Below are positions 20,099 to 23,279 of a DNA stretch of 64,000 nucleotides, piece after piece. Under the pieces are notes generated by a model that searched no databases, was not told where the DNA came from, and saw only the letters and a program-made list of their open reading frames with translations. The position numbers and the translations under genes were made by a program. Position 1 is the first letter of the stretch; each line of letters opens with the position of its first letter. Source of the DNA: Halarchaeum rubridurum (GTDB lineage Archaea; Halobacteriota; Halobacteria; Halobacteriales; Halobacteriaceae); assembly GCF_014647115.1 (NCBI RefSeq), contig NZ_BMOO01000005.1, positions 186,001-250,000 of the forward strand, read 5' to 3'.

Positions 20099-21280
20099 TC
20101 ACTCGGCCGCGAGCGCGAGGCGGCCGGCGACGAGCGCGCAGGCGACGCCGAGGGCGATGCAGACGGCGAGGAGGTCCCAGCCGGCGGCGTAGCCCGCGGT
20201 GTCGGCGAGATAACCGAAGGCGGGCGGGACGACGAGACCGCCGAAGTTGATGGTCGTCTGACCGGCGGCGGTGGCCGCGCCGGATTCGCCCTCGCCGGCG
20301 AGCGCGACGAGCGCGCCGTGGTAGAGGCCGGTGACGCCGAGGATGCCGAGGCCGAGGACGGCGAAGCCGACGGCCGCGCCCGGCATCGCCAGGAACGGGA
20401 TGGCGGCCATCGTCACCGCGCCGAGGCCGGACTGGGCGGCGAGGACGCGGATGGAGGCCGTGGCGGCCGTCCCGCGCACGCGGTCGGCGAGCGCGCCCGC
20501 GCCGATCCGGCCGACGCTCCCCGTGAGCTGGGTGACGCCGAGGACGACGCTGGCGACGGCGGCCGTCGCGGTCGTGTCGGCCTCCAGGTAGGGGACGGCG
20601 TAGCCCGTCGTGGTGAAGACGGCGGCCCCGACGAAGAAGCCGCCGGCGGCGAGCGCCATCAGGGGCCGGTTCCCCCAGAGCGCGCCGACGTCGGGGAAGG
20701 AGAGGGAGCCGGTGCCGCCGCTGCCCTCGTAGGAAAGAAGGAAGCCGACGCCGACGACGCCCGCGGCGGCCGCGGCGACGAGGAAGCCGAGCTGCCAGCC
20801 GAGAGCGTAGGCGGCGAGGCCGGCGACGACGAACGCCGCGAGCGCGGAGCCGAGCGTGACGCCGACCTGCTTGATGCCGACGGCGAGGTTGTACGACCCG
20901 CGGGGGGCGCGCTCGGCGACCGCGACGTTCGTCGACGGCATCGCGGTCGCGTACGCCGCCCCGAGGACGAAGACGGCGACGAGCAGCGTCGCGTAGCTCG
21001 TGGCGAAGGAGACGCCGAAGGCCCCGAGGGCGAGGCCGGCGAGGCCGCCGACCATCGCGGGGCGGTCGCCGTAGGCGTCGACGAGCGCGCCCGCGGGGAA
21101 GAGCATCAGCGTGTAGCCGAGCGTGAGCGTCGTGATGACCAACCCGACTTCGACGCCGGAGAGGGAGAACGCGGTCTGGAAGGCGTCGGTCGCGGGGAAC
21201 GCGGAGTAGTAGCAGAGGCTGGCGACGACCTGCCAGAGCGCGACGACGAGGACGCCGCGCCACCCGCGCTCGTCGCTCAC
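20099..21280 (-). CDS. MFS transporter
   Basis: 393 residues from GTG 21280, which overlaps the stop of the small upstream membrane gene by GTGA. The protein is almost wholly hydrophobic with about twelve helices. The loop between helices 2 and 3 carries the MFS motif GALVDAYGDRPAMV, and the equivalent loop in the second half is GALADRVRG. The family moves small solutes, usually with protons; substrate cannot be deduced. The short upstream gene looks like an operon partner. Confidence 0.88.
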   Translation of the reverse strand: MSDERGWRGVLVVALWQVVASLCYYSAFPATDAFQTAFSLSGVEVGLVITTLTLGYTLMLFPAGALVDAYGDRPAMVGGLAGLALGAFGVSFATSYATLLVAVFVLGAAYATAMPSTNVAVAERAPRGSYNLAVGIKQVGVTLGSALAAFVVAGLAAYALGWQLGFLVAAAAAGVVGVGFLLSYEGSGGTGSLSFPDVGALWGNRPLMALAAGGFFVGAAVFTTTGYAVPYLEADTTATAAVASVVLGVTQLTGSVGRIGAGALADRVRGTAATASIRVLAAQSGLGAVTMAAIPFLAMPGAAVGFAVLGLGILGVTGLYHGALVALAGEGESGAATAAGQTTINFGGLVVPPAFGYLADTAGYAAGWDLLAVCIALGVACALVAGRLALAAE

Positions 21281-21540
21281 TGCCGGGCGGAGAGGAGGAC
21301 GGCGATGCCGGCGACGAACGCGAGGACGTACGCGGGGTGGGCGCTCGCGTAGCCGACGAGGCCGGTGCCGGCGAGGGCGAGGTCGCCGGCTTCGAGCGCG
21401 GCGCGCGACCCGACGCCGTCGCCGACCGAGACCCACGCGACGAAGTGGAGGAGCCCGACGCAGCCGACGACGCCGCCGAGGAACTCGCGCGAGCGCGACC
21501 CGACCGCCTCGAAGACCCGGGAGCTGAGGGTGGAACGCAT
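21277..21540 (-). CDS. Small membrane protein of unknown function
   Basis: 87 residues with two hydrophobic segments, one in the middle (FLGGVVGCVGLLHFVAWV) and one at the end (YVLAFVAGIAVLL). Its stop overlaps the GTG start of the MFS gene (GTGA at 21277-21280), which supports the chosen start there and joint translation. I recognise no family. It could help the transporter, but that is only context. Directly upstream on the same strand lies the structured IS remnant. Confidence 0.65.
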   Translation of the reverse strand: MRSTLSSRVFEAVGSRSREFLGGVVGCVGLLHFVAWVSVGDGVGSRAALEAGDLALAGTGLVGYASAHPAYVLAFVAGIAVLLSARQ

Positions 21541-21579
21541 TACGGCGGAGTGGGTCCGGCGGGAGCAAAAGCGTGGTGA

Positions 21580-21990
21580 CATCCTCGCCCGCCGTGAACG
21601 GCGGGGCTTCCCACACAGTGAGAACCCCGGCACGGTGCCGAGAGAGGTTTCAGGGCGCGTCGTTCCGAGCCTCAGACGGCAGGGTCCCTGCCTTGGCCCG
21701 GAGTGCCCTGCAGTGCTGTCACGGGCACTCCCATCCGCAAGCGTGTCATTGCCGTCCGGTTTCTCGGGACGGCTCTCACCCAAGCGGTCATCCGGCGGGG
21801 GACCGGACGAGTATAGTTCAGCGAAACCACGTCGGCCGACGCAGGCACAGCCCGCGTTACCTGCTAATAGGTGCTTGAACACACTATGACTTTCGGTTGG
21901 GGGTTCGACCCGGCCACCGACGGCAGTTGTACATTTGATAGTCGCATTCCCTCCCGGCCTAAAGGCCGGGATTCCCTGCTTGAATTAAGA
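21580..21990 (-). mobile_element. Structured IS200/IS605 (TnpB-type) remnant without a transposase
   Basis: About 400 nt that encode no convincing protein but hold eight inverted repeats: 21588-21605 (CCCGCCG, TGAA loop, CGGCGGG), 21628-21640, 21678-21692 (GGCAGGG-T-CCCTGCC), 21700-21731 (9 bp), 21751-21773 (7 bp), 21791-21807, 21830-21841 (CGTCGGCCGACG) and 21953-21970 (CCCGGCC, TAAA loop, GGCCGGG). Read on the minus strand the first and last share the layout GGGAA-n-CCC, stem-tetraloop-stem, AGG, which I recall from the 3' ends of haloarchaeal tnpB genes where the guide-RNA scaffold is encoded. A stretch translating as PPFTAGEDVT beside the first hairpin also resembles TnpB C-terminal ends. 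No RuvC-like core is present. Confidence 0.55.
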
Positions 21991-22169
21991 TGGGACGCGA
22001 CGGGGCGCGCGCCGTCGGGCGGTTCGCGCGACGCGCGACGAGCGACGGGACGACCGGGCGCGGACTCGTCACGGGCGAGCGTGTGCGTCGCGGGTGCGCG
22101 GCGTGCGTCGCGGGACGCGAGTCGCCGGCGAGTCGAGGGTTCTTGTCCGCGCCCGTCCAAGCGCGGCGT

Positions 22170-23279
22170 ATGCGAGCGTCCAATGACCACCGGATACGTG
22201 CCGCGCGGGTCGCCCTCCGCGAGCGCGGGGCGGCGGCGCTCGCGCTCACGCCGGGCGCGAACACCGCCTACCTCGTCGACTACGCGGCCGACGCCGGCGA
22301 GCGCCACGCCTTCCTGTTCGTCCCGGCGGAAGGCGACCCCGTCCTCGTCGTCCCCGAACTCGACGGGGCGCGCGCACGGGCCGACGCGGCCGTCGCCGAC
22401 GTGCGGACGTGGGGCGACGCGGACGACCCCCTCGCCGTCGTCGACGACGCGCTCGCGGACTGCGGCGTCGCGGGCGGCGAGGTGTTGCTCGACCCCGAGA
22501 TGGCCGCCCGCTTCGTCCTCGACCTCCAGACGCTCCGGCCGGACTGCACGTTCGGCCTCGCCGACGCGGTGCTCGGGCCGCTGCGCGCCCGGAAGGACGA
22601 CGCCGAAATCGACGCCCTGCGGCGTGCGGGGCGCGCCGCCGACCGAGCGATGCGCGACGTCCGCGAGTGGGGCGACGACGTCGTCGGCGACACCGAGCGC
22701 GAGCTCGCGCGCCGGATCGAGACGCGCCTCGACGCGCACGGCGGGACCGGGACGGCGTTCCCGACCATCGTCGCGTCGGGGCCGAACGCCGCGAATCCGC
22801 ACCACGAGCCCGGCGAGCGGATTATCGAGGCGGGCGACCCGGTCACGCTCGACTTCGGGACGCTGATGGATGGGTATCCGAGCGACCAGACCCGGACGGT
22901 CGTCTTCGCGGGCGACCCGCCGGAGGGGTACGCCGCGGCGCACGAGGCGGTCGTGGCGGCCCAGCGCGCGGCCGTGGACGCCGTCGAACCCGGCGTGCCG
23001 GCGGGCGAGGTCGACGCCGCGGCGCGCGACGTCATCGCGGCCGCGGGCTACGGCGACGCGTTCCTCCACCGCACCGGCCACGGCGTCGGTCTCGACGTCC
23101 ACGAGCCACCGACCATCGTCGCCGGGAACGAGACGCCCCTGGAGGCCGGGATGGTGTTCAGCGTCGAGCCCGGCATCTACGTCGAGGACGCGTGGGGCGT
23201 CCGAATCGAGGACCTCGTCGTCGTCACCGAGTCGGGGTGCGAGCGGCTGAACGACACGCCGCGCGGGTGGCGAATCTGA
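22170..23279 (+). CDS. M24 family metallopeptidase (Xaa-Pro aminopeptidase-like)
   Basis: 369 residues from ATG 22170. An N-terminal creatinase-type domain (about 1-125) precedes the pita-bread catalytic domain. The five metal ligands can be placed: Asp in LDFGTLMDGY, Asp in PSDQTRTV, His in HRTGHGVGLDVHE, Glu in FSVEPGIYV and Glu in VRIEDLVVV. The family cleaves an N-terminal residue preceding proline, using two metal ions. It is cytoplasmic, with no signal peptide. It is on the same strand as the thioesterase gene that begins 43 nt later. Confidence 0.92.
   Translation: MRASNDHRIRAARVALRERGAAALALTPGANTAYLVDYAADAGERHAFLFVPAEGDPVLVVPELDGARARADAAVADVRTWGDADDPLAVVDDALADCGVAGGEVLLDPEMAARFVLDLQTLRPDCTFGLADAVLGPLRARKDDAEIDALRRAGRAADRAMRDVREWGDDVVGDTERELARRIETRLDAHGGTGTAFPTIVASGPNAANPHHEPGERIIEAGDPVTLDFGTLMDGYPSDQTRTVVFAGDPPEGYAAAHEAVVAAQRAAVDAVEPGVPAGEVDAAARDVIAAAGYGDAFLHRTGHGVGLDVHEPPTIVAGNETPLEAGMVFSVEPGIYVEDAWGVRIEDLVVVTESGCERLNDTPRGWRI

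Follow-up and report, generated by a model that had tools for sequence, protein, structure and literature searches.

A tnpB-less IS200/IS605-type insertion in a haloarchaeal genome retains a covarying omegaRNA scaffold that may be used in trans by TnpB

We analysed a 64,000-nt stretch of a haloarchaeal assembly of 2.81 Mb (G000:C5:186001-250000; hereafter the window) and found at 21576..21989, on the minus strand, a 414-nt IS200/IS605-type insertion that lacks both tnpA and tnpB, a PATE. The element is almost certainly a clean insertion of this type that lost the two genes and kept its end hairpins and a complete omegaRNA scaffold. The best overall explanation, to which we assign a probability of about three in four, is a PATE whose stand-alone omegaRNA serves a TnpB in trans. 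A preliminary description of this stretch had offered two alternatives, a leftover of a local loss of transposase coding or a stand-alone structured RNA usable by TnpB proteins elsewhere; the latter fits better, and the local leftover is disfavoured by the clean insertion and by a dispersed tnpB-less lineage.

The element, its boundaries and its guide

Two same-genus genomes, G003 (L073) and G001 (L074), share the intergenic region but carry the site uninterrupted, and the empty-site junction on the minus strand reads CGCGTCCCA[T/C]|CACGCTTTTGCTCCC. The G003 minus strand, without the element, is ...CGCGTCCCAT|CACGCTTTTGCTCCCGCCGG..., and the window minus strand is ...CGCGTCCCAT|CTTAATTC...[414 nt]...GAGGATGTCAC|CACGCTTTTGCTCCCGCCGG.... 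Relative to both empty sites the insertion shows no target duplication, a clean integration resembling that of IS200/IS605 elements. Directly 5′ of the left end, which starts with CTT, lies the target or transposon-adjacent motif CCAT (21990..21993, minus strand); the G001 empty site has CCAC where G003 and the window have CCAT. The junction YAT|CTT recurs at nearly all readable left ends of tnpB-less relatives (the exceptions being one GAT and one ambiguous end), and at most left ends of tnpB-bearing relatives too.

As in PATEs and other non-autonomous IS200/IS605 elements, palindromes lie near both ends, terminal inverted repeats are absent, a short fixed motif adjoins the insertion, and the element is too short for a transposase gene and contains none. 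The left-end hairpin, CCCGGCC-TTTA-GGCCGGG (21953..21970, minus strand), sits in 53 nt that match the left ends of two intact tnpB elements, L101 and L102, without a single mismatch; L052, L053, L055, L060 and further loci have similar left and right ends around intact tnpB. The right-end hairpin, CCCGCCG-TTCA-CGGCGGG (stem 4; 21588..21605, minus strand), is 98.4% paired across the alignment described below, with compensatory changes in 3/7 pairs. On the minus strand, GGGAA precedes each hairpin and a flank containing AGG follows it, as the preliminary description had reported. HqIRS71, a PATE of Haloquadratum walsbyi, is likewise short and transposase-free, with near-terminal palindromes, no target duplication and IS605-type ends, and it also retains a disrupted C-terminal tnpB coding sequence (PMC3119063).

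Within 3.1 kb surrounding the scaffold (L130), tblastn found no TnpB match, and only a C-terminal remnant is present. This remnant of the tnpB 3′ coding end (DDRLGESRPEKPDGNDTLADGSARDSTAGHSG; 21700..21792, minus strand) preserves similarity to ~30 codons of the TnpB C-terminus and overlaps the scaffold. Between 21792 and 21576 on the minus strand, the DNA matches complete tnpB elements, such as L002 from this genome and L008 from G001, over their 3′ coding end and right end at 68-69% identity. Absence of homologous copies next to tnpB genes would have spoken against the preliminary description; such copies do occur at tnpB 3′ ends, L002 and L008 among them.

The guide drawn from the right flank, CACGCTTTTGCTCCCGCCGG (21556..21575, minus strand), is identical at 20/20 nt to the G003 empty site, where it follows CCAT; the right-flank guide is thus the motif-adjacent sequence of the empty site. 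Guides of other copies are unrelated to it, and the window's own genome contains no other match with fewer than two mismatches, three-mismatch matches being near control level; an empty allele is thus its only known current target. The neighbouring genes are a small conserved gene of 87 aa (21277..21540, minus strand; homologues in 19/26 genomes of the family), an M24-family metallopeptidase gene (22170..23279, plus strand; PF00557, E = 1.8e-68) and a gene for an MFS transporter (minus strand). The 87-aa product matched no Pfam family and had no viral relatives, so we regard its gene simply as a neighbour.

Architecture and covariation of the omegaRNA scaffold

The stretch had been described as highly structured, and folding bears this out: z = -3.1 for the 414 nt of the minus strand and -3.0 for the right-hand 217 nt, with no shuffled sequence folding as well as the native one in either case. 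A 12-nt palindrome, CGTCGGCCGACG (21830-21841), and a 9-bp stem, GGAGTGCCC/GGGCACTCC (21700-21708/21723-21731), are present as reported. The accompanying figure of eight inverted repeats has no useful meaning at such G+C, where permissive seeds yield 73 pairs. We rejected the 9-bp stem, a competing fold, as a functional stem because it shows no covariation among 19 relatives; a shorter alternative, stem 1, and a pseudoknot covary where it does not.

The scaffold was defined on an alignment of 36 sequences, 19 tnpB-less and 17 tnpB-linked. On the minus strand, helix P1 (21787-21781 with 21741-21735) encloses helix P2 (21773-21767 with 21757-21751) within 21735..21787, with compensatory changes in 7/7 and 6/7 pairs, respectively. 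Stem 1 (21728-21725 with 21716-21713; 21713..21728) is 97.9% paired with compensatory changes in 3/4 pairs, and its loop carries GTGACA (21722-21717), the 5′ strand of a pseudoknot. The 3′ strand, TGTCAC (21576..21581), forms the final six bases of the right end and abuts the guide; the two strands are 99.1% paired, and five sequences carry an A-U to G-C double change. Stem 2 (21710-21705 with 21656-21651; 21651..21710), 98.1% paired with compensatory changes in 4/6 pairs, surrounds stem 3 (21701-21695/21671-21665 and 21692-21687/21683-21678). RNAalifold independently proposed stem 2 and the partner strands of the pseudoknot.

Taken together, P1, P2, stem 1, the pseudoknot and the right-end helices are paired in 93.3% of cells, with 160 double-change cells against 47 in shuffled and at most 42 in slid controls; the shuffle control can be inflated by sequence kinship, a weakness from which the slid control is free. 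For stem 1, the pseudoknot, stem 2 and stem 4 across the 36 sequences, 98.4% of cells are paired, with 91 double-change cells (21.9 shuffled, at most 16 slid). The 19 tnpB-less copies alone reach 97.7% pairing and 24 double-change cells, compared with 5.8 after shuffling. The stems therefore covary strongly, the 9-bp stem excepted, where a lack of covariation had been named as grounds for abandoning the earlier proposal.

A covariance model built from tnpB-linked scaffolds only recovered the window copy at 102.5 bits (E 3.2e-23) over all 136 positions, its second-best match in the window scoring 9.3 bits; the training members themselves score 128-163 bits. A sequence-only model gave the window copy 60.9 bits, indicating that pairing contributes much to the covariance score. 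The copy is thus homologous to tnpB 3′-end scaffolds (102.5 bits, with the 68-69% identity to L002 and L008) and has, as TnpB omegaRNAs do, a stem 1 and a pseudoknot reaching the bases that precede the guide. Since tnpB is absent within and beside the locus, the nearest one with the same scaffold type being 124 kb away on the same contig, we call it a stand-alone scaffold and not a canonical tnpB-omegaRNA locus. In the ISDra2 omegaRNA, too, the stem-1 loop pairs with the last bases before the guide and stems 2-4 follow (PMC10097598), and the two elements share the right-flank guide and the motif 5′ of the left end (PMC8612924, PMC10097598). In ISDra2, however, an intact tnpB supplies the RNA from its 3′ end and the motif is TTGAT, whereas the window element has no tnpB and the motif YAT.

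An Rfam scan of the whole window returned nothing at gathering score; in permissive mode, sot0042 (RF02656) reached 11.6 bits against a cut-off of 88, its match covering the terminal hairpin only, and HgcC (RF00062) 24.3 against 50. Haloarchaeal sotRNAs (RF02656/RF02657) are RNAs from the 3′ end of IS1341-type tnpB, and the window scaffold falls below the Rfam cut-offs. Retention of a protein from the tnpB remnant is disfavoured. The tryptophan of a PWGE motif is present in 17/17 tnpB-linked copies (as RWGE in L106) and in 0/19 tnpB-less copies, and some copies carry frame-shifting indels. Helix P1, encoded by the same bases as the PWGE region, is kept through compensation. Substitutions in the remnant show no third-position excess in either the tnpB-less or the tnpB-linked group, so that codon pattern does not decide on a protein reading.

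Upstream of the scaffold, a hairpin ACGCGGGC-TGT-GCCTGCGT (21839..21857, minus strand) is kept in L083 (GACACACGC-TGT-GCGTGTGTC) and L089 (GATACGGTC-TGT-GACCGTATC) despite many base changes, and its 3′ arm can alternatively pair with the next GACG, which forms the palindrome at 21830-21841. In the window (21830-21857) and in L082, L083 and L089, a segment is followed by its complement and then by the segment again, as in GACACACGC-TGT-GCGTGTGTC-GCGC-GACACAC of L083, so that two mutually exclusive hairpins could form. These change in concert among relatives and possibly lie at the RNA 5′ end. Judged from the letters themselves, a weak TATA-like box (TCATAGTG; 21882..21889, minus strand) may lie upstream of the RNA; CTTTATCG in L083 and CGCTTAGTAC in the other tnpB-less group occupy a comparable place.

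Relatives on chromosomes, plasmids and a virus

We extended the search from the 26 genomes of the window's own family to 394 genomes across the order. The family contains 38 loci matching the scaffold model, ~14 of them without an intact TnpB, and many elements of ~410-540 nt among the 394 genomes share the scaffold without an adjoining tnpB. The same tnpB-less element as in the window occurs in G129 (two copies, 77% identical over 418 nt) and in G311 (84% over 358 nt), genomes of other families, and on the strength of these whole copies we rejected a local one-off remnant. By family code, the sampled tnpB-less copies span at least eight haloarchaeal families, in addition to plasmids and the virus HRTV-DL1.

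A scaffold tree of only 137 columns, its tnpB-linked members chosen for their similarity to the window, separates a tnpB-less side (27 scaffolds and one beside a TnpB fragment) from a tnpB-linked side (bootstrap 84, SH-aLRT 100). This topology suggests that the tnpB-less scaffolds form a lineage separate from all sampled tnpB-linked ones, apart from L121, a further tnpB-less copy that falls among the tnpB-linked scaffolds.

BLAST placed the lineage on Haladaptatus, Natrinema and Halorubrum plasmids and, among phage records, in the Halorubrum tailed virus HRTV-DL1, although an exact-pattern scan of viral contigs had found no copies. The model trained on tnpB-linked scaffolds scores the copies of HRTV-DL1, pR1SE and pR1SE2 at 107, 100.5 and 107 bits, respectively. 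These three are 98.6-99.6% identical over ~488 nt and have different flanks, indicating recent mobility. The PATEs of HRTV-DL1 and pR1SE (OP630574, KX687704) share the scaffold lineage and end structures of the window element. In HRTV-DL1, no other locus is transcribed nearly as strongly as the 489-bp PATE, whose expression is confined to its 3′ part of ~300 bp and whose reads were described as antisense to ORF3; the authors took it for an ncRNA of unknown role and made no link to a TnpB scaffold (PMC10544981). ORF3 lies on the scaffold strand, and the transcript would be scaffold-sense only if the single-end library were of the dUTP type, which PMC10544981 leaves unstated. In the ~488-nt viral element (L166, OP630574.1), the guide GATGAGTGACCCGAGCCACC covers the possible start of an adjacent viral reading frame (ATGAGTGACC...).

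Possible use in trans and alternative explanations

Haloarchaea carry several chromosome copies. In multicopy replicons, TnpB cuts insertion-free copies and thereby acts as a gene drive (PMC11870625). The window element could exploit the same process with components encoded elsewhere. TnpA made at another locus would mobilise it, and an intact TnpA (Y1_Tnp) reading frame is present in the same genome (G000:C8:36731-37078). A promoter inside the element would drive a minus-strand transcript through the right end into ~20 nt of flank, and a TnpB from elsewhere would load this RNA. One candidate is L002, 124 kb off, the only intact TnpB with the same scaffold type in the genome; it encodes 437 aa with a TNB domain, has the end motif TCAT, and its RuvC D/E/D motifs were identified by eye. 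The loaded TnpB would cut insertion-free chromosome or plasmid copies at YAT plus guide, and repair would copy the element back, so that it is both kept and spread. The element would then be a guide-RNA-only parasite of TnpB. On balance we lean towards use of the scaffold RNA in trans by a TnpB encoded elsewhere; L002's own scaffold is only 68% identical to that of the window element, so that L002 may or may not accept this RNA.

The element might instead be a plain DNA passenger, a TnpA-moved PATE with a functionless inherited scaffold and selection on the end hairpins only. PATEs were described in 2011 as DNA elements, transposase-free IS605 derivatives (PMC3119063), and the left end here matches that of intact elements exactly. 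Without selection, however, decay of the 217-nt scaffold would break its pairs, whereas the pseudoknot, stem 1 and stem 2, far from the ends, stay 97-98% paired with compensatory changes in the 19 tnpB-less copies, and pairing persists even where the PWGE tryptophan has been lost from all of them. What distinguishes the window element from the PATEs as described in 2011 is that the retained part is an omegaRNA scaffold that covaries and carries a pseudoknot and a guide. The strong expression of the HRTV-DL1 relative (PMC10544981) also counts against an inert passenger, which we consider unlikely. Under local decay, a complete IS1341-type element would have inserted at this site and then, solely in this lineage, undergone a repeat-mediated deletion of its core, which would account for the persisting ~30 codons of tnpB. 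Deletions of this type have been recorded in Haloquadratum (PMC3119063), and the tnpB-less copy L121 may be a case in point. The window scaffold, however, clusters with tnpB-less and not with tnpB-linked copies, and G129 and G311 carry full-length tnpB-less copies that are arranged internally in the same way, making this explanation highly improbable.

Alternatively, the transcript could titrate TnpB away from other elements or regulate genes without guiding useful cuts. The sotRNAs of Halobacterium, which are omegaRNAs, are abundant, occur in circular forms and are expressed in a growth-dependent manner (PMC12558985), and the guide lies ~36 nt upstream of the start codon of the gene at 21277-21540. 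Yet a pure decoy needs neither a site-specific flank guide, which every copy has, nor the YAT present at nearly all of them; and because YAT does not adjoin the guide flank after insertion, the neighbouring gene cannot be targeted where it stands. A regulatory or decoy RNA is accordingly a distinctly unlikely account.

TnpB, the ancestor of Cas12, is usually explained as a means by which its encoding element selfishly retains itself, and omegaRNAs have been known since 2021. Stand-alone omegaRNAs have reportedly been noted for IscB, and PATEs are said to have been mentioned together with TnpB in Geobacillus; our search of the open papers found no statement of haloarchaeal PATEs as a lineage of stand-alone TnpB scaffolds. 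Beyond use in trans as such, we tentatively propose, with less than even confidence, a long-lived and horizontally spread guide-RNA-only lineage: after one early loss of tnpB, it may have branched out among haloarchaeal families, plasmids and a tailed virus, hijacking resident TnpB to destroy insertion-free chromosomes, plasmids and rival viruses. If such a lineage exists, the nuclease would be open to non-autonomous elements as a common resource to exploit, and the separation of guide RNA from nuclease gene, as in CRISPR, would become testable. Haloarchaeal PATEs, common but neglected, would gain a concrete function, and a strongly expressed viral ncRNA of hitherto unknown role would be explained. 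The HRTV-DL1 guide together with a host TnpB could target related viruses without the insertion, a possible form of superinfection exclusion.

Several further loci were observed in the same or related genomes. A second, diverged tnpB-less element of ~370 nt lies in the same-genus genome at G001:C136:8139-8350 (L054, L012), with the left end TCAT|CTTG, a scaffold of 76.7 bits and a helix P1 that is largely changed yet kept. In the window's genome, G000:C3:306432-306476 (L003, L066) is a left end standing alone, 84% identical and following GCCAT, from which no tnpB reads away; a further copy that is degraded or lacks tnpB may lie there. At G000:C10:8368-8405 (L004, L067), a right end is joined to a different structured 3′ class (GATAACT...GGATAGGAGTAACGGC...) with extra small hairpins; tblastn detected no TnpB there, and the locus could be a stand-alone scaffold belonging to a different class of TnpB. 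Finally, in L089, L095 and L071, tiny hairpin-rich insertions (e.g., CCAGAACCGTCGGTTCTGG) break end hairpins or the scaffold, recalling SMR-A, small mobile repeats for which PATE palindromes are reported targets.
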